Shown: piece after piece, positions 6,197 through 61,231 of the stretch
How the letters are laid out: the number at the start of each line of letters is the position of its first letter
How positions within the stretch are numbered: the stretch's first letter is position 1
DNA from: a virus
DNA: 64,000 bases
IMG/VR virus record: IMGVR_UViG_3300044843_000566
Span: 1-64,000 of that record
Reading direction: 5' to 3' (one strand)
Made by a program: the position numbers and the translations under genes
Notes under the pieces: model-generated
What the model saw: only the letters and a program-made list of their open reading frames with translations
Database searches by the model: none
Told to the model about the DNA's origin: nothing

Positions 6197-7231
6197 TCAG
6201 AGAATCTTGGCTGCAATTAAGCAACCACGCGCGACGGCATGCAGGGGGTCATTGGCGTGCCGCACTTCTTTAATTGGTAATGGAAATCCGTTGTCGTCCA
6301 ATTTTTTTGCGAACACGTCAATAAAGCCTTTGGCCTGGCTGGTCCCTCCGGCAATTACAACCGGCAACGGATCTTTAAATTTGGGTAACGCCTTGTGGCC
6401 AGCAATCGCGTGCGCCAGCATTTTGGTCGTGTAGTCAATCAACCGCTCGTAATACGCACTTACAGCAGCCAGCACCGGATTATCGTTCTGTTCGCCAATC
6501 GTGAAGTCACCCTGCTCTTTCTCGGCCTGTACCACCGAGTCTTTTTCACCAGTAGCGACGGCGGCCATACGGTCAATCCAGTCGCCGGATTTGGTGGTGC
6601 TAAACATGACTGTCGGCTCACCATTGAGCATGATGCAGCAGTTCACCATGCCAGCGCCGCATGACAGTGCCACGCCGGTGTAGTCATCTTTCTCGAGTTC
6701 GGAATAGCACAGCGCCTCGGCTTCGTTGATCGCCCGGGCCATGTACCCGCATTCGGCCAAAATGGTCATAACCACGTCTTCGTGATACCCAACGTCAAAG
6801 TCTTCGTCTTCTTGGTCGACGGGCTGGGCCGGAACGCAAAACACAAGTTTTTCGTGGGGTTCGCTGGCCGTGCCGACGACTTCTTTCAGGATGTACGCCA
6901 GGATGCGCCGAGCGTCTTTTTCCTTGGCCGAAACAACGCCCCGGAACATGGGCCGTTTGGCTGACTCGTTGCGCTCGATGGCTTTTTCAATAGCGTCTTG
7001 CCCAAGAAGAATAAACGTGCCGTCAGCGTCTTTGACGAATAACTTGCCCTGCAGGCCTTTCTCAATCATCTTCGTGGCCACGGGGGTCGTCGGCTTGATG
7101 GCAAAGAACGCGTCACGCAGTTCCTTGTACTTCACGTAGTCGAACTTATCGTCGCTGGTGTAGCTAACGGGGGCTTCGGAGTCTGAAGCCAGGACAATGA
7201 ATGAAGTACCAACGTCTAAACCTTTGGCCAT
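6197..7231 (-). CDS. Actin-like ATPase (ParM/Alp type)
   Basis: 344 residues, normal length for a prokaryotic actin. GLDVGTSFIVLA at the N-terminus is the first phosphate loop, ALSCGAGMVNCCIM (about 190) the second phosphate loop, and VVIAGGTSQAKGF (about 295) the adenosine motif. An HxDE-like acidic stretch (DQEDEDFDVGYHEDVV) and INEAEAL (connect region) lie between them. Such proteins form filaments that segregate DNA or position phage genomes in the cell. The next gene downstream (7233-7562) is only 1 bp away on its upstream side and encodes a small membrane protein that could anchor the filament. Family membership is secure; the cellular role is inferred. Confidence 0.85.
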   Translation of the reverse strand: MAKGLDVGTSFIVLASDSEAPVSYTSDDKFDYVKYKELRDAFFAIKPTTPVATKMIEKGLQGKLFVKDADGTFILLGQDAIEKAIERNESAKRPMFRGVVSAKEKDARRILAYILKEVVGTASEPHEKLVFCVPAQPVDQEDEDFDVGYHEDVVMTILAECGYMARAINEAEALCYSELEKDDYTGVALSCGAGMVNCCIMLNGEPTVMFSTTKSGDWIDRMAAVATGEKDSVVQAEKEQGDFTIGEQNDNPVLAAVSAYYERLIDYTTKMLAHAIAGHKALPKFKDPLPVVIAGGTSQAKGFIDVFAKKLDDNGFPLPIKEVRHANDPLHAVARGCLIAAKIL

Positions 7232-8268: not shown

Positions 8269-8745
8269 TTAAGGTCGCGAGTTGACCGCCCGGAAAGCGT
8301 GCGCCAGCGTATCGCCTAAAATCTGTCGAATACGCTCACAGTCTTCATAACTATCTTGCAACTGATCTTCATAAAAAATACGCAAGTACGTCGCCTCGAT
8401 GGGGTTGTTGATCATCAGTGCGTCAAGTTGTGCAAGACGCGTGGCGTAGTTCTTGATGACTTCTTCTTCTAGCTTTAAAGCCTCAACCAGTGCCGACTCC
8501 GTATTACGACAAAGCGGAAACTGTTTGCCGCTGGAATTTGGCAGATTAAAGTGCAGCCCAAACAGCCGATCTAGAAACTGCTGGACATGCTGCATTTCCC
8601 CTTTGGCGGACTCCAAGAAAAACTCTCGGTATTCGGCCGCGTGGATGCCGATTACAGATGACGCGTGATAAAGATAAAACTGCAAATGCGTCCATTCGTT
8701 CTGTAAGTCCGCGTTCATCAGGTCTAAAAACTGCGGGAGCGTCAT
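8269..8745 (-). CDS. Ferritin-like/bacterioferritin-like diiron protein
   Basis: 158 residues, all helical. ADLQNEWTHLQFYLYHAS supplies the first Glu of a ferritin-like site. EFFLESAKGEMQHVQQFLD has the ExxH pair of the second helix. LEEEVIKNYATRL and YEDQLQDSYEDCERI supply acidic residues of helices three and four. The length fits bacterioferritin or Dps-like proteins that oxidise and store iron or protect DNA. A phage copy could guard against oxidative stress or occupy iron in the infected cell. The four-helix pattern and metal ligands are visible; the activity is inferred. Confidence 0.7.
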   Translation of the reverse strand: MTLPQFLDLMNADLQNEWTHLQFYLYHASSVIGIHAAEYREFFLESAKGEMQHVQQFLDRLFGLHFNLPNSSGKQFPLCRNTESALVEALKLEEEVIKNYATRLAQLDALMINNPIEATYLRIFYEDQLQDSYEDCERIRQILGDTLAHAFRAVNSRP

Positions 8746-20479: not shown

Positions 20480-21361
20480 TTATTTCTCCGCCACGTCAGG
20501 CCCTAGGGTTGTCTGACCAAGAATAAACCGCTCGTGCTTTTCAATCTGCTCGGCAATCCAGTCTGTGTACAGGCTTACGCGTGTAAACGCTGCTTCGTCG
20601 CCGTAGGTGCCGTCTGGCTTTTTATCTACGGCCATTAAGAACGAATTAATACCGGCTAATTTGTTGCCAATGAACATGCCGCCCCCAGAGTCCCCAGGTG
20701 CAATCATGAACTCCAGCGGGAACCTGTCATGTGTCACGCTCGGAGTGCAAATCAGAATCGTGCGTTCGCTGGAATCAATGCGGTTGTGGCCGGCTCGTTT
20801 CTTATTGTCGTCAAAGACATGGCCGGTGTGAAACGTACCGCGGCGGCCATAACCAGCAATTGTGGCGGCCTTGCCTGTCTCATCTAAGTCTTCATATAGC
20901 GGTATGTAAAAGGGCAACTCAAATGGCTTCGCCGAGTAGCACAGCGCAATATCGTGAAAGCCAAACTTCTCGTCTTCAAACAAGTGATGAATAATGACCT
21001 TGTCGACGGGGTATTTAATTTTGTCGTCTGTTTCGGCGACGGTAAGCGTAGCCCCGTGCACAACATGGGCCGCCGTTAGCATCCAGTGCGGCTTGATGAC
21101 GACCGCAGAACCCACCTGGAATTCAACGTCAGGTGATATGTCGCTGTCTGGTTTCGGAACCAACGAGAGCGTTTCAATCTGCTCAGGATCTTTGTCGAGA
21201 ACTAGGGTGCGAAGGCGGACGACAGTAGGAAAACTTTTACCGAACTCGAGATATTTTTCGTCAGGTGTGTTGGGATCGATCGTGCCCGCTAGCGCTCTAT
21301 GCAACGTTAGTGACAAAATCAAAAACGTAATAAGTCGTCGAAATAGTTCGTATCCGTCCAT
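20480..21361 (-). CDS. Exported trypsin-like serine protease (S1 family)
   Basis: 293 residues. The N-terminus has a signal peptide (LITFLILSLTLHRALA, cut near residue 25). The catalytic triad is visible: TAAHVVHG (His), HDIALCY (Asp) and APGDSGGGMF (Ser with oxyanion Gly). IAGYGRRG is a further S1 landmark. The protein should be secreted to the host periplasm or outside. Phage-encoded S1 proteases with signal peptides are unusual; targets could be envelope proteins. The operon context includes the 84-residue membrane protein. Confidence 0.85.
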   Translation of the reverse strand: MDGYELFRRLITFLILSLTLHRALAGTIDPNTPDEKYLEFGKSFPTVVRLRTLVLDKDPEQIETLSLVPKPDSDISPDVEFQVGSAVVIKPHWMLTAAHVVHGATLTVAETDDKIKYPVDKVIIHHLFEDEKFGFHDIALCYSAKPFELPFYIPLYEDLDETGKAATIAGYGRRGTFHTGHVFDDNKKRAGHNRIDSSERTILICTPSVTHDRFPLEFMIAPGDSGGGMFIGNKLAGINSFLMAVDKKPDGTYGDEAAFTRVSLYTDWIAEQIEKHERFILGQTTLGPDVAEK

Positions 21362-32261: not shown

Positions 32262-32330
32262 CATTCTTTCAGGCAGCGGTTTATCGTAATAGGTTATCCC
32301 TTCCAGTCACTAGACGCGCGCATAAACAAG

Positions 32331-32684
32331 TGGACCCGGCGGGAGTCGAACCCGCGTCCGGAGAAGTGCCCAGTTAAAACATCTACGTGTGTATGCCATT
32401 ATCTTTCACCAACGGCCAATGCTATCCGCACACTTAGCGGAGTCACGTGGACTACCACGATCTCGTCCGATTACTTTGCCGGACCGACGCAAGTGACTTA
32501 TCACTATCAGCCTGATTGGGCGATGAGGTCCAGGCAACCCCACAAGCCACCTAACCGAGGTCAGGCAGCGAGGGCCGGAGCATAAGCGCCAGCTAGAAAC
32601 TTAATCGAGTTTTAACGCGGCCTCTCGATCAACCGCGACACGCAGTCAGAACCTTCTTCCTCCCGTCGATACCAGTACGGGCCC
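32331..32684 (-). ncRNA. ssrA: tmRNA (trans-translation RNA), tag GAYAPALAA
   Basis: The 354-nt RNA starts GGGCCCGTACTGGTATCGACGGG, with the conserved GG-TTCGAC-type D-loop region. It ends with a T-arm (CGGGTTCGACTCCCG) and GGGTCCA; the ends pair as an acceptor stem. After TCTAGCT the reading frame GGC GCT TAT GCT CCG GCC CTC GCT GCC TGA encodes GAYAPALAA, the normal degradation-tag form ending in ALAA. CCA is not encoded. tmRNA frees stalled ribosomes and marks their products for proteolysis. SmpB is not seen in the window. All landmarks are in order, so the call is firm. Confidence 0.95.
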
Positions 32685-36458: not shown

Positions 36459-37574
36459 CTAACTTTTTTCTTTTTTCAGCCGTTTAAAGCGCTCGGGCAG
36501 CGTGTACCAGCCATCGCCATGCAGTTCGGACAGCGTGGTGAACGCTTGATCGTATAACTTGCCGCACGCCTGCAGACTGTACTTAGCCCTGGCCTGTTCC
36601 GCAATAACTTTTCTATCTAAGGCTGATACTTTTTCAAGTGCCTCTAGCCAGTCACGCAAGGTCTTACATCGGAAACCATTTACCCCGTGCTGCACTGTTT
36701 CCGAGAACGCCCCATAATCCGCGGCAACCAATGGCGTGCCGCACAATAAGCCCTCGACACCAGAGCCGCCAAACGGCTCAACAAAGCGCGTGGGCATTAA
36801 CGAACAAATTGCGTTTTGCATAAACATGCTACGACTTGTTCCGCTAATCGGGCCCCAGTACTCAATGTTTGGATGCTCCCAGCGTTTGTGATCGCCTTGG
36901 CCGCAAAGCACAATCTTTTTGTCGCCGATGTACTTGGCGATCTCGTAAATTGTGTCTAGCCCTTTGCACTCTGAAATACGACCCAAGAAAGCGTAATACT
37001 GTCCGGGTTCGTATTTGGGCTGCCAGTCGTCAATTTCAAAATAGTTTGGAATTACCCACTCATACGTCGTACCGTTTTGGTTAGCTTTGCCGGCGTGATA
37101 ATGCCGCCAAGCGTAGCTCTCAAAGATCCTGAAACTACCGTCCATCAACGTCGGATAGCCGATGCCAGTCTCGACATGGATATTTGATGGAAATAAGCGG
37201 CAGACTTCCGTGTGTGCGTGACCAAATGGGTGGCAAATGATGTCAGTTTTTTTGACCCTCTTTTGCATCTCAGGCAAAAGTTTGGCCTCAAAAGCACTAT
37301 GCCACGGCGTACCCATTGTTGCCAGGTTTGCGTAGAACTCGGTCTTTTCGCGTTTGCCCGTGAGTGCGTCAAGCGCTTTGCGAGAAAGAATCTGCACTTT
37401 CTCAACGGCGTCGCTTTCGCTGCCTTCGTTGGCGTACTCTACAACGTTGTAGCCGTACATCTGCAGCATCTTGGAAAACCGCAGGGCTTTTCCAGTGAAC
37501 GCACAGTGTGAGTAATCTTGGCTATGAACAGTATGGAAAATTCCAATAAGGTGCAGCGTAGGCTTATCGTTCAT
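36459..37574 (-). CDS. Glycosyltransferase, GT-B fold (GT4-like)
   Basis: 371 residues from ATG 37574, which has GGGAG upstream. GQYYAFLGRISECKGLDTI marks the start of the C-terminal nucleotide-sugar domain, IVLCGQGDHK follows, and EPFGGSGVEGLLCGTPLVAA is the conserved E(x7)E loop region that binds the donor sugar. The N-terminal half (FHTVHSQDYSHCAFTGKAL) is the acceptor domain. It should move a sugar from a nucleotide donor to an acceptor such as a virion protein or host glycan. Confidence 0.85.
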   Translation of the reverse strand: MNDKPTLHLIGIFHTVHSQDYSHCAFTGKALRFSKMLQMYGYNVVEYANEGSESDAVEKVQILSRKALDALTGKREKTEFYANLATMGTPWHSAFEAKLLPEMQKRVKKTDIICHPFGHAHTEVCRLFPSNIHVETGIGYPTLMDGSFRIFESYAWRHYHAGKANQNGTTYEWVIPNYFEIDDWQPKYEPGQYYAFLGRISECKGLDTIYEIAKYIGDKKIVLCGQGDHKRWEHPNIEYWGPISGTSRSMFMQNAICSLMPTRFVEPFGGSGVEGLLCGTPLVAADYGAFSETVQHGVNGFRCKTLRDWLEALEKVSALDRKVIAEQARAKYSLQACGKLYDQAFTTLSELHGDGWYTLPERFKRLKKEKS

Positions 37575-37596
37575 GGCCACTCCCTTGGCGCAAAAA

Positions 37597-38025
37597 TTAT
37601 TTGACAACCTCAACAAACTGAAACTGCATCTGCTGCGGAACTGTATAGGTTATAGCCGCAGCACCAGACAATTGATCCGCAGCTGTTCTGAATTGCTGGC
37701 TTAAAATTGCACGTTGCTCGCCGGTGACGGCCGGCAGGGTTAACGCATATACATTGTCTGGGCCAAATTTGATAAGCACGTCTGTGTGCGTAACAGTAAC
37801 TGTGGGATCTGTTTTCTTTGCCACTTTCTTAAACAGATTTAAGTCCGCTGCGAGTTTGATAATTGTCGTGGCCAGTTCGCGTACAGTCGCGTCTGTCGAA
37901 ATGAGGCGGCTGAGATCACCTGTCCTGGCGATTTCAATAAGTTGTGCAATGACGTCCAGACTAGGGCCAATTGAGAGTTCTTCTTTTTTGTTGTCGCAGG
38001 GTGTGTTTTTGTTGCAGCACGACAC
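37597..38025 (-). CDS. Hypothetical protein with Cys-rich start
   Basis: 142 residues. A Cys-rich N-terminus (SCCNKNTPCDNKK) is followed by a helical region (LDVIAQLIEIARTGDLSRL) and a beta-rich end (TVTVTHTDVLIKFG). It precedes the glycosyltransferase by about 20 bp. No family is recognised. Confidence 0.58.
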   Translation of the reverse strand: MSCCNKNTPCDNKKEELSIGPSLDVIAQLIEIARTGDLSRLISTDATVRELATTIIKLAADLNLFKKVAKKTDPTVTVTHTDVLIKFGPDNVYALTLPAVTGEQRAILSQQFRTAADQLSGAAAITYTVPQQMQFQFVEVVK

Positions 38026-38039
38026 GGCAGCACTCCTTG

Positions 38040-38633
38040 TTACTTTGCGGCGTTTAATTGTTGCGAATAACAGTCAGCACACGCGGGTAAATACTTTTCT
38101 TCGCAGCCAAGTTCAACAGACGGCCCCAGCACAGTAGCCCGCCCGTCGAGCAGTTTAAGGTTGAACACAGCCTTCTGCAAGCAGTAGTAGCAGATCGTTT
38201 TGATTTCTTCAATAGTGTCCGCCAGCTCAAGTAGCCGCTGTGCTGCGGGAAACAAATGCGTGCGAAAGTCCGTCCGTAAACCGTAACAGATAACTGGAAT
38301 ACCTTTTGGGCTTGCTGGCGCCACAGCGGAGTGGGCAATGTGATGCAACTGATCAATCGCCGGCACAGATAAGAACTGCGCCTCGTCTACCAGCACGCAA
38401 GCCACGTTATCAAGTGCCGGTATGGTCATTGGCCCTGTCGGCGGTGCAAGCACGTCGGCGTCCATTTGCAGGCCCGCACGTGTTTTAATTACGCCTGAAC
38501 CAAAGCGAGTGTCGAGTTCAGGTTTAATGAGCAAAACTTCTTTGCCCTGCTGTCGGTAGTTGTGTGCGACAGCAAGCAGATTTAACGTCTTGGCACTACC
38601 GACAGTACCGTGACGAAAATAGAGTTTAGCCAT
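38040..38633 (-). CDS. tdk: Thymidine kinase (type II)
   Basis: 197 residues from ATG 38633; a GTG 8 codons earlier is also possible. GTVGSAKTLNLLAVAHNYR is the P-loop (usual GPMFSGKT altered), VACVLVDEAQFLS the Walker B motif, and VICYGLRTDFRTHLFPAA the lasso and thymidine-binding region. CYYC and CADCY supply the zinc Cys pairs. It phosphorylates thymidine to dTMP and works with the thymidylate kinase at 62287. Confidence 0.9.
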   Translation of the reverse strand: MAKLYFRHGTVGSAKTLNLLAVAHNYRQQGKEVLLIKPELDTRFGSGVIKTRAGLQMDADVLAPPTGPMTIPALDNVACVLVDEAQFLSVPAIDQLHHIAHSAVAPASPKGIPVICYGLRTDFRTHLFPAAQRLLELADTIEEIKTICYYCLQKAVFNLKLLDGRATVLGPSVELGCEEKYLPACADCYSQQLNAAK

Positions 38634-38673
38634 TACGTTACTTAGAGAAGCCGGCACTAACGAAAATTACACT

Positions 38674-39233: not shown

Positions 39234-40970
39234 CTAAGTTGGTACAGTATTTGTAATGATTACGCGACTTGTGGAAGAAATATCATTACAACGTACAACA
39301 ACACGCCAACCCTGTACGTCAGACTCAGCCGCAGTCTGTAACACAAACGTATTGCTAAAAACTAACTCGGCTACGGATAGAGGTGATTGACCTGAGCTCA
39401 TATTATTTACTTCGCCGTTGGCTCCGGGGATGTCTTGCCAAAATTCTTCATCTGGTTGCGTGATAGGGTTAGCGTTAGTTTGCCACTGATAAGAGAACAC
39501 GCCGCCCAAGAAGTTACTGATGTAAGCCCGTGCTTTGACTGTATAAAGCCCTGGCGTAATTGTGTAGTAATGCGCGGGAGCGTAAGTAGTCGTGTCTGTG
39601 GCCAAAATAAACGGCCCCGAAAAAGTGCCAAGGTTCTCCCACGCAAATTGTGCGATCGTAATAGTAATAGTAGCCGGATCGCTGTACTGTGCTCTAAGTG
39701 CGCCGAGTTGTACGTATACACGGTATTTCGTTCCGTTGTCTGCAGTCGTTAAGCCGGTCAAATTAAGACTTGCACCTTGGGATGTGATCTCGTCGCGAAG
39801 TATCCCGCCGACATAAAGACGCCATGTATTAAATTGTTTTGATACCGCAATGTGGTAATAAACAGTGTTTGTAATTGGACCGTATTTGAGGATTTTGGTT
39901 GTGTTGGGAATTTTTACATTTACAAAACCAATTGCCCCATTTTGCGGTGTAAAATAAATGCAGATACCGTCTGTGGCGTCTTTGTTTGTGCGTGTGTCTA
40001 TGAAAATTGATTCTGAGCCGGCGCTATCGTTGTATGAATGCAGAAACCGCCGTACGCGCACATACCCTTCGTAACAGCAATCATCAAGATAGACTGCGAA
40101 GTCGTACGGTACGGTCAAACTGCTATTTGTAATACGAAGATAGTTGAAGTGTGTCCCCAACCCCCCGGCTACGCTACCAGCGGCGGGCGGCGGGTCGACG
40201 TAATTTTTTGTACTCGTTACAAACTGCACTGCAGATGTGTTGCTGCCGTAGCCAAAAAATGCTGCGCTTTGTGTGACAGGAAAAAGGTTGTCCCACGTGC
40301 TGTTAATGCCCGGCGTAGTAGTGACACGAATATTTTGCGAATTACCAGCACTACCAATACTAGGCGTCCAAACGTTAATTACGGGACTGAATACTGTTCT
40401 TGTGCCTGGGCTGCCAAGGTTTACACCTAATTTTGTGTAATTATCGGCTAGGTCAGCCGTTGCAGTCGCCGGGTTATAGCCCGAAATAACGCCCGCCGTG
40501 TAGCGCGGTATTCCCTTTGTTACACGCACAGAGTCGACATATCCGTAAAACTGGTTTGCTGCGTTTACTGTCCCGTCACTAGCCTCAGCGTTGCCGATTG
40601 TTATTTTTTTGCTTGTTAAATTGTAGGCGCTTTTTGTAACAGGCTGCCATGTGTTGCCACCGTCTGTTGACACTTCCCAAAAATACAGCGGCGTATAATT
40701 AAAAAAATTGCTGTTGTTGCATGGCTGGCTCACCTGACTTTCTAACGTTACAGAATTCACGCAGCGTAGTTCAACATTGGGCAGCGGCGAAACCGTAAAA
40801 TATGATGACGGCCAACGTCCTTCGGCTATGTAGTTCGCTGCTTCCGCCAGCGTCCACAGCCCAGTCGACTGGTTGCATGCCGACGGCGGTACGTAGTTAG
40901 CCCCGTGTGCGCTCACCAGGGAGTCGTACTGATTGATGAAAAGTAGGCGGCCCGGACCTGATGAACGCAT
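39234..40970 (-). CDS. Fibre/adhesion protein with LamG-like domain
   Basis: 578 residues, Ser/Thr/Asn-rich and beta-structured. Residues about 265-400 (FIDTRTNKDATDGICIYFTP, then YYHIAVSKQFNTWRLYVGG) match a LamG/concanavalin-like carbohydrate-binding fold. A C-terminal Ig-like part (YTVKARAYISNFLGGVFSYQ, then LQTAAESDVQGWRVVVRC) follows. The ATG overlaps the stop of the upstream fibre gene (TAATG). It is probably a receptor-binding virion protein. Confidence 0.68.
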   Translation of the reverse strand: MRSSGPGRLLFINQYDSLVSAHGANYVPPSACNQSTGLWTLAEAANYIAEGRWPSSYFTVSPLPNVELRCVNSVTLESQVSQPCNNSNFFNYTPLYFWEVSTDGGNTWQPVTKSAYNLTSKKITIGNAEASDGTVNAANQFYGYVDSVRVTKGIPRYTAGVISGYNPATATADLADNYTKLGVNLGSPGTRTVFSPVINVWTPSIGSAGNSQNIRVTTTPGINSTWDNLFPVTQSAAFFGYGSNTSAVQFVTSTKNYVDPPPAAGSVAGGLGTHFNYLRITNSSLTVPYDFAVYLDDCCYEGYVRVRRFLHSYNDSAGSESIFIDTRTNKDATDGICIYFTPQNGAIGFVNVKIPNTTKILKYGPITNTVYYHIAVSKQFNTWRLYVGGILRDEITSQGASLNLTGLTTADNGTKYRVYVQLGALRAQYSDPATITITIAQFAWENLGTFSGPFILATDTTTYAPAHYYTITPGLYTVKARAYISNFLGGVFSYQWQTNANPITQPDEEFWQDIPGANGEVNNMSSGQSPLSVAELVFSNTFVLQTAAESDVQGWRVVVRCNDISSTSRVIITNTVPT

Positions 40971-43000
40971 TATAAGACTCCGTCACCCGTCGCTGTCGCG
41001 GTAACCGCACTCGGCGGCGTGTTTGAGCGTGTAGCGTACTCCCAGTAACCAGCCTGCGTGCCGCCGCCTTTGTAAAACGCGGCTTTAAACCATTCGTGCG
41101 TTGTCGGCAGAACGTATTTCGCACCGGTTTTACGCACTAACGTAAGATCAGAGTCAGAGCCGTCGTTTTCGGGCGTGGCAGCGTAGTTTGTAAAATCACC
41201 CGCCGGCGTATCGTCGCCAGTTGGGAATGCAGACGAGAATTGATACGAGCCGTTTTCTGTGGTACCCGGACCAGTCCGTCCGTTGTGCAGCCAGTTAGCG
41301 TAACGTATCGCAGAGTACCATGAAACAAAATTAACAGGCTTCGCCGCCATGTTTTGTCTTATTTCGTACCGTGCCCCCGCTGATCCGGCCGCGTTATACA
41401 CAATACCGCCGTGCACATTACTTGCCATGTTAGCGTCGTAAAGCCCTAAAGTATTTGCACCGGTTGGATCTACGTTGTTTAAAAAATCAACATACTCCGC
41501 ATTTGAGACTTCGTATTTCTGTATTTTGTAGGCATACGCGACGGCACCAAAACTACGGAAAAGAAATCCGTTTGAAGCCGCGTTTGAATTACCTATGTCG
41601 CCAACATCCATAAAGATATTGCTATGCAAAATAACGGGGCTAGTCTCAAAACTTACCAGTCTAAAGCCGCATGTCGGCGTCTTTGCCGTGACGGATAAAT
41701 ACTGTTGAGTGTTTAAGCCAGAACCACTAGATATAAATCCTGTGCTGGCGAGTTTATCGAGGAGCACGTCGGTAAACGCGCCGCCTGGCGTATAAGCGTC
41801 AGCACTTGAACTTGCCTCAACCGAGCGCGTTTCTAACCATTCATTTACGTTGCCGTTCATGTCATATAACCCGTACGCGCTAGTACTGCCCGACGTGCCT
41901 ACAGACAACAAATTACCGTTAGTCGTGGCGTTCCAGTTTGCCGCACCCGCATAATTTGCAGAATTAATCGGAGCAGGAGGCGAACTGCTTAACGGGATTA
42001 CTTGTGTAGACGGTATGCTCCAAATACCCGCAGTATTTGCCGCTATGCCGCGTACACTAAATACATACGGTATGTTGTTCTGCAAATTTAAAATTGTTTT
42101 TGCAGTAGTAACGCTGCCAGTCAAAATACCATTACGACTGGGCAACCATGTTTGACCGTCGTCTATAGACCAACGTACAGCATACTGTGTAATTACCACG
42201 CCGCTCGGAATGCTGCCTGGCGTGCTCCAGTTTATAAGTGCAGACGCGTTATAAGCCGTGGCAGTCAGATTGCTTGGAGCAGCAAAACTTGTTGGCGTGA
42301 CGATATCGGTCACGTTGCTCCACGCACCAACACCTAAACCATTTAACGCCCCGACCCGAAACCTATACTCGTGCCCGTTTGTTGCTGCTAACGAAAACGA
42401 TCGTGCCGCAGATTCTGGTTTAGTTAAGGTAGTGAATACAGGCCACGCCGTAGACGAGTCAGGCCGCGAAGAAACTTGAATAACGTAATCAAAAACTGGT
42501 GTACCGCCGTTTGCAGCTGGTTCGCTCCAGTACAACGAAATAGTCGCGTTACCTGGTTCTGCCGTTAGATTAAGCGGCGCTGACGGCACTGTAAGCGTTG
42601 GCGGGACAACTACGGTGTCGGCAATAAACTCATACGAAACGGTGGCGTCTGCTCGAGCATCTATACCGGCTCTAACTTGAACCATATCTCCTGATTCAAG
42701 ATAAATTGGGTTGTCGCGGCACACGGCAATAAGCGTTGCGTCGCGCGGTACCGTAATGGATTTGGCTAGATAAAAAGACTTTACTTCCGCGTACGCACCC
42801 GAGCCGACAATACGCACAATACGAACATCAATGTCGACTGCGTAGTTTTCGTCTTTATTCGCGATAAATAGCGAGTTAATTTTGTATATGACGCCGGACT
42901 CGGGAGGATTCGCGACTAAAATTTGGTTGTAGTCTGTGACGTTTAAATAGTTCGTACGCCCATAAAGCGTCGTTGTATTTGCAATATTTGACTCGGCCAT
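40970..43000 (-). CDS. Fibre protein: FnIII domains plus circularly permuted FGE-sulfatase-like domain
   Basis: 676 residues from ATG 43000, which has GGAGG 6 nt upstream. Residues 1-125 match the small protein at 50390 (DNPIYLESGDMVQVRAG). Two FnIII-like domains follow (PSAPLNLTAEPGNATISLYW; PSNLTATAYNASALINW). The last 330 residues are an FGE/SUMF1-type domain (C-type lectin-like fold), but with its halves swapped. AYGLYDMNGNVNEWLE...CGFRLV, normally last, comes before YKIQKYEVSNAEYVDFLNN...VLPTTHEWFKAAFYK, normally first. The fold is common in receptor-binding tips. No catalytic Cys pair for formylglycine chemistry is evident, so binding is more likely. Confidence 0.78.
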   Translation of the reverse strand: MAESNIANTTTLYGRTNYLNVTDYNQILVANPPESGVIYKINSLFIANKDENYAVDIDVRIVRIVGSGAYAEVKSFYLAKSITVPRDATLIAVCRDNPIYLESGDMVQVRAGIDARADATVSYEFIADTVVVPPTLTVPSAPLNLTAEPGNATISLYWSEPAANGGTPVFDYVIQVSSRPDSSTAWPVFTTLTKPESAARSFSLAATNGHEYRFRVGALNGLGVGAWSNVTDIVTPTSFAAPSNLTATAYNASALINWSTPGSIPSGVVITQYAVRWSIDDGQTWLPSRNGILTGSVTTAKTILNLQNNIPYVFSVRGIAANTAGIWSIPSTQVIPLSSSPPAPINSANYAGAANWNATTNGNLLSVGTSGSTSAYGLYDMNGNVNEWLETRSVEASSSADAYTPGGAFTDVLLDKLASTGFISSGSGLNTQQYLSVTAKTPTCGFRLVSFETSPVILHSNIFMDVGDIGNSNAASNGFLFRSFGAVAYAYKIQKYEVSNAEYVDFLNNVDPTGANTLGLYDANMASNVHGGIVYNAAGSAGARYEIRQNMAAKPVNFVSWYSAIRYANWLHNGRTGPGTTENGSYQFSSAFPTGDDTPAGDFTNYAATPENDGSDSDLTLVRKTGAKYVLPTTHEWFKAAFYKGGGTQAGYWEYATRSNTPPSAVTATATGDGVL

Positions 43001-43002
43001 TT

Positions 43003-44688
43003 TCAACCTCCAAAGATAAATGACGGCCAGATTACTCTAGGCCCTGTAGCGCCCGTAACGCCTGACTCGCCGCCTGGTGTGCCCGGTGGACCTGACGGGC
43101 CTGTGCCCCCTGTATCGCCTTTAGGGCCAGTCGGACCTGACGGGCCTGTTTGCCCGACAGCGGCAATGACGCGTACGCCATTAATGAATACCGCTGAAGG
43201 ATCTGTCGGATCGATAACAACAGTCGGGCCAGGGCCTGTAACCCCAGTTACACCAGTCATACCGGTGACGCCGACACCAGTAGCGCCTGTAACGCCAGCG
43301 CCGGCTGGGCCTGTAACCCCAGTTACACCAGTCATACCGGTGACGCCGACACCAGAAACACCGGTTACGCCTGTTTCGCCGGGCATCCCTGGCACGCCTG
43401 ACGGGCCGTCAAGACCTGTGACGCCAGTAGGCCCTTCAACACCGCTAAAACCTTGTAAACCAGATACGCCGGTTGCACCAATGTCACCGCTAGGACCTGT
43501 AGGCCCCGTGGGGCCAGTTAAACCAGGGCCACCTGTTGCACCTGTTGCACCCGTTACACCCGTTAAGCCGGTTACACCAGACGCACCAGTTGCACCCGTT
43601 TCGCCCGCTGGCCCGGTTAGGCCTGTAACACCAGTAAAACCGGCTGGCCCTGTAATGCCCGTAGACCCCTCCGGACCAGTAATGCCCGTGGCACCTGTGA
43701 TGCCAGTAACCCCAGTGACGCCTTTTGCACCAGAAGCGCCCGTTATACCGACGCCCGTAACACCTGTAACGCCAGTGATTCCGGTGATGCCCGTGACGCC
43801 AGTTAAGCCCGTAACGCCTGTGGGCCCGCGTGTGCCAGATATACCGGATATGCCTGTCGCACCTGTTAAGCCAGTAGCGCCCATCTGCCCGATACCGGTT
43901 GGGCCTGTAATGCCGGTGGGTCCAGCCGGACCAGTAACGCCTGAAAGCCCCTGAAAGCCTGACACGCCAGTAGGGCCCGTCATACCAGTTACACCGCTCG
44001 GACCCGCAGGGCCCGTTGGTCCAGTAACACCAGTGAACCCAGTAGCACCACTAGAGCCCTGGTCGCCTTTTCTGCCATCAAAACCAGTGGCACCGATGCT
44101 ACCCGCAGGGCCGGTGACGCCGGTAACGCCCGTTAAACCAGTAGCACCTGTCTGACCGGTTACACCAGAAATGCCAGTGACACCAGTTAAACCAGTTGCG
44201 CCGGCAGACCCAGTTACACCAGTGACACCTGTAACACCCGTGACACCTTTTGTGCCTGTGACGCCGGTTACACCGGTCGTGCCGCCTGGGCCAGTAGAGC
44301 CTGTTACGCCAGTAATACCGGCGGGCCCTGACAGGCCAGAAGCGCCTGTAACACCAGTGACACCTTTTGTGCCTGTGGGGCCAGTAACGCCCGTCATGCC
44401 ACGACCACCGCCCGGACCCGTAGGCCCTGGTGGCCCGCTAGGGCCGGTAGCGCCAGCTAACTCTGCTGGCAGTTGCGTTGCCGGAACTTTGCCAGACGAA
44501 TCTAATCCGGCTACACCGCCCGGCTGCCCTATTAAGGAAGTCGTAATTGCACTTACAAGATCCAGGATCGCGCCGAGCGTTGTCTTTTTTGTTGTCGGCG
44601 GCGAGACCTGCTGGTCAACAATCGCAACTAAGTCGTCACGACTAGGGTTCGCCTTGCCGGGCAAATCCGATATGCGTTTTTGTGCCAT
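43003..44688 (-). CDS. Collagen-like fibre protein with Gly-X-Thr repeats
   Basis: 561 residues. The N-terminus ([12 protein letters not shown]..., [19 protein letters not shown]) is shared with the protein at 60251 and is probably the virion attachment head. From about residue 78 to 550 the sequence is an almost unbroken run of Gly-X-Y triplets ([10 protein letters not shown] style), in which Y is mostly Thr and X is Pro, Val, Ala or Ile. This predicts a collagen triple helix with many Thr that could carry sugars. It ends in a short C-terminal segment. A glycosyltransferase lies 81 bp upstream of it. Confidence 0.88.
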
Positions 44689-44714
44689 GGGCGATCTCGC
44701 AGCAAACGAAGGAG

Positions 44715-44727
44715 CAGCCTATAAAAT
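44715..44727 (-). promoter_or_regulatory. Promoter-like -10 TGCTATTTTATAG
   Basis: On the minus strand TGCTATTTTATAG lies about 30 bp upstream of the collagen-like gene start, with an AT-rich stretch before it. It resembles the TGCTATACT boxes at 15800-15822 and about 57160. Confidence 0.4.
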
Positions 44728-44769
44728 AGCATAATTTTGCCGGTTTACATACCGCGGGCAAGTATTACG

Positions 44770-45411
44770 CTAGTGGTGCATAAACCACTCGTCTGACGAG
44801 ACAAAGGAATGAAACACGTTGTGCACCGGATAGCCAGTCACAATATTTTTATGCCCCTGCAGCGCGTAATTAAATGCGTGCATATCGTTTAAACCCGTGC
44901 ACACGCTATTTAAACTACCGAGCCGCAGCATAAATTTTACGATGTCTATGCCGCCTACGATGCCGCAATTGTAAAGATTTTTTGGTTTTTCCATATGCCC
45001 CCAAAAAGGGCACCCGTGAGCAAACTGTGCCAGCCAATTCCAATGATTAAATTCAAGCGACTCTGAGCCGGCATATAAAAAACCCGGAGCTGGTTTTGGT
45101 TTATTTAACATGACGACATCACGTACGTCTGTGCACCATAGTTCTCCGTTAATCGGATGCCGCTTTAAATACGCTGCAATAACCACAAAACGATAAGTAT
45201 GCGGTAGGCCTCGGCACACAACCGGCACCTGAGTTACAGGTAAAAAACTACAGTCGGCATCTGTGAAGAGAACAGGCTGGTAGCCGTGATCGTTTACGGA
45301 TTCTGCCCACGCACGCCCCATCTCCGGCGTCATTCGTTTATCGTGACTACCAGAATTTGGAATTTCACCCTTAGTGAACAGCGCCCCGAGAACATAACCA
45401 GTAGGCGGCAT
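44770..45411 (-). CDS. Glycosyltransferase-like, GT-A fold
   Basis: 213 residues. VLGALFTKG at the start, PVLFTDADCSFLP, ELWCTDVRDVVML (a DxD-type motif, about 93-98) and LYNCGIVGGIDIVKFMLRL are typical of short GT-A enzymes such as GT8/galactosyltransferase-like proteins. NHWNWLAQ and HNVFHSF are late landmarks. It points away from the plus-strand pair at 45494 and lies directly upstream of the collagen-like gene. Confidence 0.65.
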   Translation of the reverse strand: MPPTGYVLGALFTKGEIPNSGSHDKRMTPEMGRAWAESVNDHGYQPVLFTDADCSFLPVTQVPVVCRGLPHTYRFVVIAAYLKRHPINGELWCTDVRDVVMLNKPKPAPGFLYAGSESLEFNHWNWLAQFAHGCPFWGHMEKPKNLYNCGIVGGIDIVKFMLRLGSLNSVCTGLNDMHAFNYALQGHKNIVTGYPVHNVFHSFVSSDEWFMHH

Positions 45412-45493
45412 TTGGAAGCTCCCGGCGGCGTATTGCAGATTTTTACGGCATACATAGACTAGTGTTAGTTTAACAGACAGGCCCGCGCTAACT

Positions 45494-46360
45494 ATGCCGC
45501 ACTACTTAGCCGTACTAGCCGTTTTTAGGAATGAGGCTAGTTTTATGTCCGCCTGGTTAGAGCATTATTTTATGCGCGGCGTAGAGCACATATACCTATT
45601 AGACGACGGCAGCACAGATGATTTCTACACGCCTACATTTAACAAGTATTTAAACGCTGGCCAGATCACGCTACGGCATGTCGCGCCAGAGGACTATGAC
45701 AACAAAAAAATGGAGCGCCAGCGGTACCTGTACAACAAGTACTTTGGTGACGTCGTAAGCCAGACTTTTTGGCTGGGAATCCTAGACTTAGACGAATTTT
45801 ACTACTCGCCCGTGGAGAAGAGTTTAGCCACGCTGCTGAGCCAATATGAAACTAGTTCGTACCAGGAAATTCTTGCAGATTGGTACTGGTTCGGATCTGC
45901 GGGGTACATACAGCAGCCAACTGATACTGTGGGTTCTTTTTTATATCGGTCGGCTGGCCTGTCTCGCACGTACAATTACCACGCCGAGGGCTACCACCAC
46001 GAATGGTGTTGCAAGTCATTCAGCAAAACAAAAACAATCGCACAACTTAGTCATCATTTCAACTATTATCGCAGGCACCGCACGGCAAATTTTTGCACGC
46101 AAGGTAAAGCTGGCAACGAAGATTTTAGTTTTAATCTATCACGCCACGGCCTAGGTTTTATCAACCACTACATTGGTGCACGAGATTATTACGCAACTAA
46201 AAAAACACGGGGTTCTTGCAACAACAGCGCTATCGTGCGAGACGAAACGCTATACGACAAACTTAATAAAAACGACATCTTCGATCCACGTTTAGCAGAG
46301 CAAACTAATGCCAGACCGTTTACCGATTCTCGTGATCCAAAACACGTGGTATCACTTTGA
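45494..46360 (+). CDS. Glycosyltransferase family 92-like (GT-A)
   Basis: 288 residues on the plus strand. LAVFRNEASFMSAWLEHYFMRG at the start, HIYLLDDGSTDD, RQRYLYNKYF, and LGILDLDEFYYSP (DxD motif) are the landmarks of GT92/DUF23 enzymes, some of which transfer galactose. The ATG is fixed by conserved NRN-type residues close behind. It overlaps the next gene by 53 bp, so the two are coupled. Confidence 0.82.
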   Translation: MPHYLAVLAVFRNEASFMSAWLEHYFMRGVEHIYLLDDGSTDDFYTPTFNKYLNAGQITLRHVAPEDYDNKKMERQRYLYNKYFGDVVSQTFWLGILDLDEFYYSPVEKSLATLLSQYETSSYQEILADWYWFGSAGYIQQPTDTVGSFLYRSAGLSRTYNYHAEGYHHEWCCKSFSKTKTIAQLSHHFNYYRRHRTANFCTQGKAGNEDFSFNLSRHGLGFINHYIGARDYYATKKTRGSCNNSAIVRDETLYDKLNKNDIFDPRLAEQTNARPFTDSRDPKHVVSL

Positions 46361-47324
46361 AACTACCATCGCCATATACCAGTTACTTGAAGACGCAGGC
46401 TACAAACCTTACGTTTATCGGTGCGCCCCCGGCGAAGATGTTTTTAACCAGGCTATATTTTTAAAAGAGAAAAACATTGCCGTAGCCAATAATGACGTAA
46501 TTAAAAAAGCCGCCGCTGGTATAGTTATCTCGGCGTATCCGAACCCGCATGTTGATAAAAAAGAAGCGATTCCTAACGCGGCGCATCTTTGCCTGCCGCC
46601 TGAGTTGCGAAACAAACTGCTGTTTATTTCGCATCGGTTTCGTCGCTTAGATGATTACGTAAATAACTTGTTTGGAATTACGGCCAAAAACACGTTCTGC
46701 CTGTCGCCCAATTCGGAGCGCATAGGAATTGATTACTTGTTTTTAGTCGCCAGTCCCGTAACACCGGAGACTGTGCCGTATACGCGGCCGTTAAAATTGG
46801 CCGTGCAGGGGCACCTAGAACTTGAGAACAGGCGTATCGAGTGGCTATCTGCGGCCCTCAAAAAAAGAACATGCGCCGAGTTTGCGTTACAAATTATCGG
46901 CACACATGCGGGCACGATAGCCGGACCTCATTTTGAAAACTGCAACGACGTAACGTTTGTTCACGGGCCGAGCGAACAAGAATTTTATTCTCGCTTATCG
47001 CGCGACACTCATTTTTTGCTGCCGCTAATAGACGGCGAAATGAAACGAAAAACTTATGTTATCGAGCGGTACAGCAGCAATTTTATGCTGGCATGGGCGC
47101 TGGAAAAACCAGTGTTCTGCCATGAGGTATTCAAAGACATTTACAATACGCCAGGTATTTACTACAACTACGGCAACGTAGCTGAACAGTTTGACGAGTT
47201 GCTGGCCACAAGTGAGACGACTTACGGCTTATTATTAAAGCGTATGCGTGACCAAAAAAAAATACACCAACAAAGTAACACAATAAAATTGCGTGAAAAA
47301 TTAACGCAAATTATTCAGGGTTAA
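46308..47324 (+). CDS. Glycosyltransferase-like protein, GT-B type
   Basis: 338 residues on the plus strand. LPILVIQNTWYHFETTIAIY at the start suggests an N-terminal Rossmann fold. LKLAVQGHLELENRRIEWL, QIIGTHAGTI, VTFVHGPSEQEFYSRL, FLLPLID and YSSNFMLAWALEKPVFCHE follow the order of the C-terminal domain of GT-B enzymes (linker, phosphate loop, donor region). It is coupled to the GT92 gene and ends convergent with 47311, overlapping it by 14 bp. Confidence 0.68.
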   Translation: MPDRLPILVIQNTWYHFETTIAIYQLLEDAGYKPYVYRCAPGEDVFNQAIFLKEKNIAVANNDVIKKAAAGIVISAYPNPHVDKKEAIPNAAHLCLPPELRNKLLFISHRFRRLDDYVNNLFGITAKNTFCLSPNSERIGIDYLFLVASPVTPETVPYTRPLKLAVQGHLELENRRIEWLSAALKKRTCAEFALQIIGTHAGTIAGPHFENCNDVTFVHGPSEQEFYSRLSRDTHFLLPLIDGEMKRKTYVIERYSSNFMLAWALEKPVFCHEVFKDIYNTPGIYYNYGNVAEQFDELLATSETTYGLLLKRMRDQKKIHQQSNTIKLREKLTQIIQG

Positions 47325-47649
47325 CGGGCGGCGAGATATTCAGCGACCCGTCTTCGTTGTATGTAAACTCGCCTACAACGGAGAGCCCCGGGATTACAGA
47401 TTCAGGCTTAATCTCTGCCAGCAGAGCCCCGATCTTGGCATGGAGTTGGAAGAGTTCTACGCCGTCTGTGCCTAGCGCCGCGGCAATCTCTTGCGGAGTT
47501 GCCTGCGGATTCTGCCAAAACAGTTTGGAGTTTTGCGAGAAAGCCCCCGTAAGATTTCGGAATATATTGCGGGCGTTTTGTTTAAGTTGGTTGGCAATGC
47601 GCGTAGCTGGGTCAATGGCCGGAGATGTTTCTGGGTCGAGAACGCTCAT
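47311..47649 (-). CDS. Hypothetical protein among fibre genes
   Basis: 112 residues. The N-terminal half is helical (ATRIANQLKQNARNIFRNL), the middle has ATPQEIAAALGTDGVELFQL, and the end is beta-like (LSVVGEFTYNEDGSLNI). The pattern resembles small structural proteins of phage baseplates or fibres, without a firm match. Confidence 0.58.
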   Translation of the reverse strand: MSVLDPETSPAIDPATRIANQLKQNARNIFRNLTGAFSQNSKLFWQNPQATPQEIAAALGTDGVELFQLHAKIGALLAEIKPESVIPGLSVVGEFTYNEDGSLNISPPVNPE

Positions 47650-47679
47650 GGTTAGTCCTTTGTTTAAAAATAGCGTAAA

Positions 47680-48426
47680 TCAAAGATTCGCCGTTGTCGC
47701 TAGTACCGGTGCCGGCGTCGTGTCCGGAGTAAACACATAACCCGGCTCAGTAATATTATCAAATAATTGCTGGTCTGCCGAGTAATACAGCCGCACAGCA
47801 GTTTCTTGTTCTTCTGTTAACACGGCTTTTTTTCGCTTTGCCTTGTTTGCTTCCGGTATTGGCGCCGCGATCTCAAGAAACTCCCAAGCGGCTTTCATGT
47901 CGCGGGGGAACTTAAAGCAGGTGGTCGGCCCTACGGCGTATTCGTGCTGATGGAGAAAGTGTACGTTGTCGCGCAAGAACCCAAAGCGAGGCGGTTTTTT
48001 TCCTCGGGCTATCATCTGGTTCGCTGTGCGGGTATTTTGCCGCGTTCGGTAATCCAGTTGTTTTTGCCACTGCGCGGCGGGTAAATTGCTTGGTTTGGGG
48101 CGGAGACACTGCACGTCAGCGATGATCGAGTCTATGGCGTTTTGGATATTGCCGGGTTTAATGTTTATCTGCTGGCACGCGGACACAAAACGATCAACCG
48201 GGTCACGGACAAGTAGCACCACAGGCTTTGTCGGCGTCGGCGATCCGCTACACATCCAATGCCACAATTCAGTTTCAGGTGATTTGCCTTCTGGATACGC
48301 TGCAGTACGTATCAGCCAATCTTGCCGCGGATAAAACTGCTGGATAATAGCCCGCGCCATGCTGCTCGAACCAACTTTGGCGTTAAGCGCAACAGAGTAT
48401 TTTGGCGTGCCGTAATAGAAAATCAT
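47680..48426 (-). CDS. Sulfotransferase-like protein
   Basis: 248 residues. ALNAKVGSSSMARAIIQQF near the start is the 5'-phosphosulfate-binding loop (KxGSSS, compare KTGTT/KSGSS), and VVLLVRDPVDRFVSACQQI is the 3'-phosphate-binding motif of PAPS-dependent sulfotransferases. FGFLRDNVHFLHQH and TCFKFPRDMKAAWEFLE fit the carbohydrate sulfotransferase family. It would move sulfate from PAPS to a sugar hydroxyl. A phage-borne copy among glycosyltransferases and collagen-like fibres points to sulfated virion glycans. Confidence 0.8.
   Translation of the reverse strand: MIFYYGTPKYSVALNAKVGSSSMARAIIQQFYPRQDWLIRTAAYPEGKSPETELWHWMCSGSPTPTKPVVLLVRDPVDRFVSACQQINIKPGNIQNAIDSIIADVQCLRPKPSNLPAAQWQKQLDYRTRQNTRTANQMIARGKKPPRFGFLRDNVHFLHQHEYAVGPTTCFKFPRDMKAAWEFLEIAAPIPEANKAKRKKAVLTEEQETAVRLYYSADQQLFDNITEPGYVFTPDTTPAPVLATTANL

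Positions 48427-57447: not shown

Positions 57448-57448
<1 letters not shown>
57167..57448 (-). CDS. Small fibre-associated protein with DGGTF end
   Basis: 93 residues. APILPATEEDIFPTHDAQYGKGGYRAV and VAARDAIPVARLAVGSIVKTM are typical of small phage fibre accessory domains. The last residues, QTDGGTF, repeat the C-terminal end of the giant fibre (TIDGGTF). It overlaps the start of the collagen-like gene stop by 1 bp. Confidence 0.65.
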
Positions 57449-60237
<2,789 letters not shown>

Positions 60238-60250
60238 TCAGGCTTTGCTG

Positions 60251-61231
60251 TTAGAAGAAACAAACAATACGCGCTGTGCCGTTCGTATCGCATGACACGA
60301 CAGAATTCGAAATACGAATTTTAAATGCTGTCGTTTTTGTTGCTCCTGTCATTGTTAGTTCGCTTGTGGATGTCGGATACCGTGCGTGCCACAAGTCTGT
60401 ACCGGCGGTGTAACCCCAATAAGTAACGTCTTTAACTTCTTTGCCGACAGTGTGCGTAATCGTCACGTCATTCGAAGAGATCGCTGATGACCACCCGGCT
60501 GGTAGGCCTGTAATAGTGCCGGGTGACGCACCGGAAAATGTCACGTTAAACTCAAACATAGAGTCTGCGGCACTTAAGCCTGTCACGCCTGTCGCGCCAA
60601 CTGGGCCTGTGACACCCGTAACGCCAGCTGGGCCCGTAGCACCTGTGACACCAGTAACGCCACTTACGCCGATACCCGTGGGACCGTTGACGCCGCTTAC
60701 GCCAGTAACACCTGTGACCCCAGCAGGACCTGTAGCGCCGCTCGGGCCTGTTACGCTAGCACCTGACGGACCCGTTAGTCCTGTAGCACCAGTAACCCCT
60801 GTCGCTCCGGCAGGCCCGGTAGCCCCTGTAGTGCCAGTAATGCCAACTGGGCCGGTAATGCTAGCACCTGACGGACCGGTTAGCCCGGTAAACCCTGTAG
60901 CACCAGTAACGCCGGCAGGGCCTGTAGCTCCTGTGACGCCAGTGATACCTTGTAAGCCTAGAAGCCCTTGAAGGCCAGACGGCCCCGTGGAACCTAAACC
61001 GATATCAGGTAATTGCGCCGTAGGGACTTTGCCGGAACTATTAAGCGTCGCCACGCCGTTAGGCACGCCCTTATCGCTAGACGGAATACCGCCAGTTAAC
61101 GCAACAATAGCCGATAACGTTGTGCGTTTTGTCGCCAGTCCACCCGCGTCTTGAGTGTCTACAAGCGGAATAATGTCATTTAAAATCGGCGTCAGCTTTT
61201 CGGGCAGTTCCGAAATCTTTTTTTCTGTCAT
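60251..61231 (-). CDS. Collagen-like fibre protein, paralogue of 43003-44688
   Basis: 326 residues. The head [53 protein letters not shown] matches the head of the collagen-like protein at 43003. About 45 Gly-X-Thr-type triplets follow, then a C-terminal beta domain ([18 protein letters not shown], then [16 protein letters not shown]). The shared head points to attachment to the same virion site. Confidence 0.88.

Follow-up and report, generated by a model that had tools for sequence, protein, structure and literature searches.

A direct precedent for a glycosyltransferase (GT) gene that lies beside a Gly-Pro-Thr-rich collagen gene and whose product acts on the collagen is SgtA of Clostridioides difficile. 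This protein of 358 amino acids (aa) combines a GT2 domain with TPR repeats, its gene lies immediately upstream of the collagen-like gene bclA3, and it was shown to add beta-O-GlcNAc to Thr of the BclA3 collagen repeats (PMC7157674; papers are cited in this text for individual passages). A putative GT gene also lies two genes upstream of a collagen-like spore fibre gene of Bacillus thuringiensis (PMC11952670, preprint). Among viruses, Mimivirus makes collagen-like proteins and a glycosylating enzyme, L230, which is both a lysyl hydroxylase and a collagen glucosyltransferase, although the same source states that its glucosylation was not confirmed on Mimivirus particles (PMC9614988), and mycobacteriophages have been found with glycans on their own capsids and tail tubes (Freeman 2023, as cited in PMC12619734). 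These two cases show that proteins of viruses can be substrates of viral enzymes or be present in virions in glycosylated form. Here, we analysed a stretch of 64,000 nucleotides (the window; positions 1 to 64,000 of IMG/VR virus record IMGVR_UViG_3300044843_000566, which has 69,349 bases in total) from a tailed phage that encodes three collagen-like fibre proteins and, on the same strand, a GT4-type glycosyltransferase, 36459 (genes are named by their first position; Table 1). Judging from gene content and comparison between phages, we propose, with a probability of about 0.58, that 36459 glycosylates the collagen-like fibre shafts of this phage.

The likeness of the proposed system to SgtA and BclA3 lies in a GT gene near a collagen gene, which is Gly-Pro-Thr-rich in C. 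difficile, and in an enzyme acting on collagen Thr, as shown for SgtA (PMC7157674) and proposed for 36459. The domain order of SgtA is common to a phage GT2+TPR family, as compared by description and not by sequence. In contrast, BclA3 belongs to a spore coat and not to a virion, and 36459 is a GT4 and not a GT2+TPR protein; because the GT families differ, 36459 may work like SgtA without being a member of its family. L230, from an amoeba virus, targets hydroxylysine and holds its two activities in one protein (PMC9614988). Mycobacteriophages likewise carry glycans on their own virion proteins, but these are capsid and tail-tube proteins and not collagen fibres (PMC12619734). In the cyanophages S-CBWM1, ACG-2014f and S-CAM7, relatives of 36459 lie directly beside collagen-like genes in the public records. 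The open-licence literature on phages together with collagen and GTs or glycosylation did not, in the listed titles and abstract openings and in the passages covered, describe a link between collagen and GT. Collagen-like and GT genes are named separately in one phage genome (PMC7029224; PMC10202952), and the two are not joined in passages of PMC3368898, PMC12220804 and PMC9301287. The preliminary description of the window knew of no described phage system of glycosylated, perhaps sulfated, collagen shafts.

Collagen-like fibres are common in phages. Scans of viral contigs for the codon patterns of three Gly-Val-Thr (GVT) or three Gly-Pro-Thr (GPT) triplets gave at least 239 loci, 150 of 239 having an open reading frame (ORF) of at least 25 triplets; because the loci were drawn by these patterns, the Thr richness of the sample is by construction. 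From these, 50 longer records (30 GVT and 20 GPT, at least 26.9 kb) were hand-picked before GT searching, and other records of similar length, mostly GPT, were omitted. As a control, we used 47 records of at least 25 kb from 80 loci listed for the non-collagen fibre repeat DAKGRVTAG, excluding the window relatives L305 and L375 as well as L379 (the record of L092 in the GVT sample); one control record (L318) is without the fibre frame. GT4 (PF13692) and GT2 (PF00535) matches were counted only over the family cut-off, which removed one of the 37 PF13692 rows and five of the 31 PF00535 rows, and the counts are lower bounds in both sets because these are only some of many GT families. Such domains were found in 41/50 collagen records versus 4/47 control records (Fisher p 6e-14). 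The median record length was 61 kb for the collagen set versus 42 kb for the control; the contrast was also seen per length (15.0 versus 1.2 GT matches per Mb) and among records of up to 70 kb (24/32 versus 1/36, the latter single record counted by hand). Within the controls, five records held a collagen over the cut-off and six more below it only, and a GT was present in 3/5 of the former versus 1/42 of the others (p 0.002).

We then measured the distance from the GT to one collagen ORF per record. A GT lay within 5 kb in 20/50 records, compared with a mean of 8.3 and a maximum of 18 in 5,000 trials of random placement, and it shared the strand of the collagen in all 20. At a limit of 3 kb the count was 15 records (uniform placement mean 5.2, maximum 14); at 8 kb it was 24 (mean 12.7, maximum 24). 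This within-record closeness is less open to an explanation by lineage than the record-level contrast. Co-occurrence with GT92 and sulfotransferase genes had been suggested earlier as a check on the system. PF13704, a family matched by the GT2/GT92-type protein 45494 of the window and kept outside the GT counts, was found in 15/50 collagen records at E ≤ 0.001 (five over the cut-off) and the sulfotransferase family PF03567 in one.

To this survey we added a comparison of the GT proteins themselves. For this purpose 22 of the 36 over-cut-off GT4 matches from collagen records were fetched, mostly those nearest the collagen, and linked in a 42-sequence BLAST comparison (E ≤ 1e-8, lenient setting). 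Together with 36459, 19 of the 22 formed one family, in which all 190 pairs were linked at identities of 25–77% (median 33%). phrog_3408 was the best PHROG for all four members tested, and its match to 36459 covers the whole protein (residues 16–374, profile 2–362 of 363). Members are not all collagen neighbours, some lying 9–26 kb or more away. Two GT4 proteins (G063 and G054b) and a GT4-like ORF just past the window (64088) remained unlinked to the family, so this BLAST linkage is no general property of GT4 proteins. The remaining one of the 22, G029, fell into a GT2 group. In the window, the distance from 36459 to the closest collagen gene is 5.4 kb, and 36459 is kept at 67–68% alongside the collagens in both other lineages of the phage group (read in G004 and G005). 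In the reverse direction, close relatives of 36459 were found in 51 of 50,697 named phage records, belonging to the three cyanophage types above. In the one record read per type, a collagen-like ORF lay beside the relative on the same strand, at 6 bp in S-CBWM1, 1,028 bp in ACG-2014f and 46 bp in S-CAM7; only in ACG-2014f was it annotated as collagen. These observations give strong comparative support for 36459, and not the central cassette, as the best candidate for a collagen glycosyltransferase.

A 2OG-Fe(II) oxygenase gene follows within 1 kb after the collagen and GT4 genes of ACG-2014f (L459 16067-16660) and S-CAM7 (L460 16972-17568), and another (99874-100158) lies beside those of record G020. 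Hydroxylation of phage collagen by these enzymes is possible. As a general partner, prolyl hydroxylase was rejected, PF13640 being found in 2/50 records (46 of the 50 surveyed collagen records, G000 and three relatives).

The second BLAST group, made up of eleven GT2 proteins and G029, had links in 40 of its 66 pairs, and another three GT2 proteins (G026, G038 and G022) joined neither group. phrog_13126 was matched by all six members tested, five of which carry C-terminal TPR repeats, and six of the twelve are 351–357 aa long, close to SgtA. The phrog_3408 and phrog_13126 families are not linked by BLAST, and both are found with collagens. Relatives of the GT2+TPR family occur in 47 named records, of which ten were read. 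The two closest have a collagen nearby, at 3.0–3.9 kb in DSL-LC01 and 68 bp in MT838491. In DSL-LC01, the collagen genes and the GT2+TPR gene have a tryptophan halogenase gene between them (L461 13433-16077). In the jumbo phages Lu11, HRDY3, Erwinia, Dickeya and NCTB and in Afa-NA1 (L463-L466, L468, L469), a DNA ligase gene stands a short way before the relatives, the prohead protease and capsid genes come after them in the records that annotate these, and no collagen was found in the stretches read. The two GT types were also compared by the triplets they accompany: GT4 was found in 23/30 GVT versus 6/20 GPT records (p 0.0015), and GT2 in 8/30 versus 11/20 (p 0.07). The median Pro fraction at the X position of the Gly-X-Y triplets was 0.21 in GT4-only (n 22) versus 0.37 in GT2-only records (n 12; p 0.015), in a sample drawn by these triplets.

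The three collagen-like proteins of the preliminary description were confirmed, as was Thr in most of their third triplet positions. Thr occupied 62, 74 and 58% of the Y positions in fibre proteins 1, 2 and 3 (135, 121 and 45 triplets scored). Val, Ala and Pro predominate at X, with Pro accounting for just 21, 12 and 24%, respectively, which is exceeded in relatives (36–43% in three G005 collagens and 49% in one L007 collagen). The most GTs and the least Pro coincide in the window lineage, a suggestive pattern among three lineages only. Thr is, however, the commonest Y residue of bacterial collagens, filling 31.6% of these positions across bacteria as a whole and 48.3% in those of Gram-positives (PMC8968730). 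Because of this, the Thr richness is by itself no evidence of glycosylation, and its earlier use as a pointer to O-glycans was dropped.

The preliminary description had named three GTs (44770, 45494 and 46308), between and beside the fibre genes, in a glycosylation and sulfation cassette, followed by a sulfotransferase and, last, a further GT, 36459. Two of the three were identified as GTs by family matches, and 46308 had none: it matched no Pfam or NCBIfam family, its sole PHROG match was uninformative (E 0.045), its single-sequence fold model had a mean predicted local distance difference test (pLDDT) of 34.9, and a genome scan found no relative. 44770 matched no Pfam family at E ≤ 0.1. In mycobacteriophage Ariel, a 27.6% relative of it lies two genes past the major capsid gene, and no collagen-like ORF was found in the stretches read at five loci of its family in named phages. 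45494 has relatives in six named phage records (five Synechococcus phages at 30.8–31.8% and one uncultured at 22%); no collagen-like ORF was found in the stretch read at one GT92-family locus, and a genome scan with the GT92 pair gave 13 relatives at 21–34%, 12 bacterial and one archaeal. 45494 matches phrog_13126 weakly (E 5.6e-05). At 288 aa, of GT2/GT92 type and lacking any match to TPR repeats, it is not built like SgtA, and neither is the GT4 36459. All three proteins lie outside both collagen-linked GT groups by BLAST and by family profiles. 45494 and 46308 were found in three contigs only, 100% identical there, in scans that reach close relatives only, and 44770 has a 62% relative in L008-L010. 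None of the trio is present in L007, which keeps the collagens. The trio was thus rejected as the core system, since it comes and goes between relatives that keep their collagens. G004 and G005 have ORFs similar to 64088 in the corresponding position.

The gene at 47680, described earlier as a sulfotransferase, proved to be sulfotransferase-like. It scored 14.4 bits against Sulfotransfer_2 (PF03567), under the cut-off of 22, and five relatives scored 13.7, 21.4, 19.4, 25.4 and 16.3 bits, the fourth (L029) exceeding the cut-off. In seven aligned proteins of this type, the motifs KVGSS, near the N-terminus, and VR.P..RF were invariant; we take these to be the 5' and 3' binding motifs for 3'-phosphoadenosine-5'-phosphosulfate (PAPS). 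A search of its fold model (pLDDT 71.4) with Foldseek gave no PDB match at E ≤ 0.001. With VIA-align, all 50 matches listed were sulfotransferases, with heparan sulfate enzymes leading, and the best Z was 7.0 (heparan sulfate 2-O), a value below 8, for which the program warns that the match can reflect no more than a shared arrangement. The best BFVD match was a cyanophage sulfotransferase (E 1.1e-04). Structure prediction had been suggested earlier as a check on the enzymes, and these models of 47680 and 46308 are its outcome. Three sulfotransferases gave no match against named phages by tblastn, and sequence searches of the PDB with 47680, A4, 46308 and 44770 gave no useful match.

Two other explanations of the gene grouping have to be weighed against glycosylation of the collagen shafts. 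The GTs and the sulfotransferase might alter host surface sugars, as in superinfection block or receptor change; the clustering of host-recognition genes would then account for their place in the fibre region. DNA and host surface sugars are frequent targets of phage GTs, and it is possible that 36459-type GTs act on them as well. Several of our own results also weigh against action on collagen. Five genes separate 36459 from the nearest collagen gene, neither GT family was matched over the cut-off in 9/50 collagen records, and the nearest GT lay more than 5 kb from the collagen in 21 of the 41 records that have one. The excess was weak at 2 kb (8 records, mean 3.5, trial maximum 12), and around eight more distant GT2+TPR relatives (27–34%) no collagen-like ORF was found in the 20–31 kb read at each (8–15 kb on each side). 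Because the control records may stem from other phage groups and hosts, lineage could explain part of the record-level contrast. In ACG-2014f, several GTs belong to a sugar-biosynthesis cluster together with two ORFs that carry motifs like those of sulfotransferases, and the variable trio, with two genes on the opposite strand, resembles host-sugar cargo. Gtr-type clusters for lipid-linked O-antigen modification include a membrane GT or a flippase as partner; in the six window proteins checked, no stretch of 19 residues is strongly hydrophobic. This fits soluble enzymes and speaks against the host-sugar explanation, though soluble GTs also build host surface sugars. Further points against it are the rarity of these GTs in records sampled by a non-collagen fibre repeat (three of the four positive controls also having a collagen), the closeness above random and the adjacency in three named phage types. 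Action on host sugars is the usual reading of phage GTs, as for pelagimyophages (PMC7029224), and a prophage collagen fibre made in Escherichia coli was not glycosylated, with no phage partners present (PMC3368898). Taken together, we regard action on host sugars as unlikely here. The neighbourhood might also be an accident of tail-module mosaicism, the Y-position Thr being a default of bacterial collagens, among which it is the top Y residue (PMC8968730); the variation of the local trio between lineages fits such an accident. This explanation is weakened by the survey statistics, both across and within records, and by the finding of two unlinked GT families with collagens, and we consider it improbable.

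For the sulfotransferase, the best-favoured explanation is a different one, namely that it is a partner of the LamG fibre, adding sulfate to a glycan which this fibre binds or bears, and has nothing to do with collagen; we judge this fairly likely. The two genes share one base (TAATG), and an overlap was seen in all 14 rows listed, of 1 base in 12 and 4 bases in the other two. The LamG gene adjoined the sulfotransferase in 8/8 loci mapped of 13 found; among the other five, three were 100% identical to the window in the sulfotransferase and two were of the L024 lineage, which is LamG-adjoining when mapped. Relatives of the 112-aa gene lay downstream of the sulfotransferase in six of the eight loci mapped. 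A collagen was found in 9/14 sulfotransferase records; the five without a collagen match are 19–72 kb long and, at this length, possibly fragments. Because the gene overlaps or adjoins LamG also where no collagen was found, it appears to go with the LamG fibre. On the other hand, gene coupling does not reveal the substrate, and all eight records of the phage's own group (G000-G007) hold both sulfotransferase and collagen. Within this group, lineages L007/G004 and L008-L010/G005-G007 keep LamG (81%), the sulfotransferase (85–86%), the 112-aa gene (76–77%) and the collagens. Sulfated collagen as a general system was rejected on the PF03567 count in the survey (PF13469-type sulfotransferases were not searched), and the sulfated shafts suggested in the preliminary description now have a chance of about one in ten. 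In Synechococcus phage S-SRM01, the genes near a tail fibre gene include those for a sulfotransferase, a GT2 relative and a nucleotide-sugar epimerase (L467 10539-13536), and the two stretches checked for collagen (record 205000-240842) gave none.

Returning to glycosylation of the collagen, the frequent co-occurrence of collagen fibres and sugar-attaching enzymes suggests that collagen-bearing phages probably coat their own collagen fibres with sugar, and glycosylated collagen shafts have somewhat more than an even chance. The phage-made glycosylated shafts of the preliminary description thus gain comparative support from co-occurrence, closeness and strand, with 36459 in place of the trio as the enzyme. 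We infer the substrate, linkage, sugar and purpose of 36459 as follows. As a soluble GT encoded by a tailed phage with collagen-like shafts, it most likely transfers a sugar from a nucleotide-sugar donor to Thr of the Gly-X-Thr repeats, and the modification would take place in the cytoplasm of the host, while the fibre is being assembled or earlier. The added sugar would make the proline-poor triple helix stiffer and more hydrated, and could shield the fibre. 44770, 45494 and perhaps 46308 would be additions specific to certain lineages and may lengthen the glycan or make it vary, and the substrate of the sulfotransferase is more likely a glycan on the LamG fibre or the host than collagen. A broader proposal is more tentative and falls somewhat short of an even chance: glycosylated collagen might be general in tailed phages with collagen fibres, the phrog_3408 GT4 and the SgtA-like phrog_13126 GT2+TPR being two dedicated O-glycosyltransferase families, the former mostly with Val/Ala-rich (Gly-Val-Thr) and the latter with Gly-Pro-Thr shafts. 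The sugar would replace proline or hydroxyproline as stabilizer of the helix, and the window phage would add further GTs and the LamG-side sulfotransferase.

The genes discussed form a long fibre module on the minus strand, from the collagen genes at 60251-61231 through 36459, and two members of the trio are inverted between 44770 and 47311, opposing the fibre genes (Table 1). The fibre protein 40970 is likely a receptor-binding tip; its FGE-sulfatase-type domain is presumably C-type-lectin-like. Outside this module, we observed on the minus strand a 344-aa protein (6197-7231) matching Pfam Volactin, which we take to be an actin-like family, over almost its full length (E 1.9e-61), a ferritin-like domain protein (8269-8745; PF00210, E 4.7e-09), a trypsin-like serine protease (20480-21361; PF00089, E 2e-17) and a transfer-messenger RNA gene (32330-32684) with the short tag GAYAPALAA and four transfer RNA genes within 4 kb.

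Table 1. Features of the fibre region, with positions in the window unless stated otherwise
Feature	Position	Strand	Evidence or remark
GT4 glycosyltransferase, 385 aa, phrog_3408 family	36459..37616	-	PF00534 E 1.1e-12; phrog_3408 E 6.6e-61
Thymidine kinase	38040-38657	-	Between LamG-like fibre 39234 and GT4 36459
LamG-like fibre protein	39234..40970	-	Laminin_G_3 E 0.00045, under family cut-off; phrog_38322 E 1.4e-07
Fibre protein with fn3 and FGE-sulfatase-type domains	40970..43006	-	Pfam PF03781 E 1.2e-17; fn3 E 3.3e-16
Collagen-like fibre protein 1, 561 aa	43003..44688	-	Pfam Collagen E 1.6e-55
GT of phrog_1579 type, 213 aa	44770..45411	-	PHROG E 7.6e-10
GT2/GT92-type glycosyltransferase, 288 aa	45494..46360	+	Over cut-off for PF13704 (E 6.4e-11) and PF01697 (E 3.7e-06)
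338-aa protein, proposed GT	46308..47324	+	No family assigned
112-aa protein, function not assigned	47311..47649	-	No family; downstream of sulfotransferase
PAPS sulfotransferase-like protein, 248 aa	47680..48426	-	Motifs; relative L029 over PF03567 cut-off
LamG (concanavalin-A-like) fibre protein, 654 aa	48426..50390	-	Laminin_G_3 E 1.2e-32
Repeat fibre, 1,850 aa	51567-57119	-	Within fibre module
Collagen-like fibre protein 2, 928 aa, three collagen blocks and globular inserts	57448..60234	-	Pfam Collagen E 1e-52
Collagen-like fibre protein 3, 326 aa	60251..61231	-	Pfam Collagen E 3.3e-18
Further GT4-like ORF, just past the window	Record 64088-65164 (L041 1088-2164)	-	PF00534 22.1 bits, cut-off 26.4

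If glycosylation by 36459 holds, a dedicated collagen GT would answer how a proline-poor Gly-Val-Thr helix is stable without a prolyl hydroxylase. Phages would then modify their own fibres, affecting host range, stability and recognition, and they would be a source of small soluble enzymes for making glycosylated collagens. The named cyanophages, in which the collagen-like genes and the relatives of 36459 lie side by side, make this claim testable.

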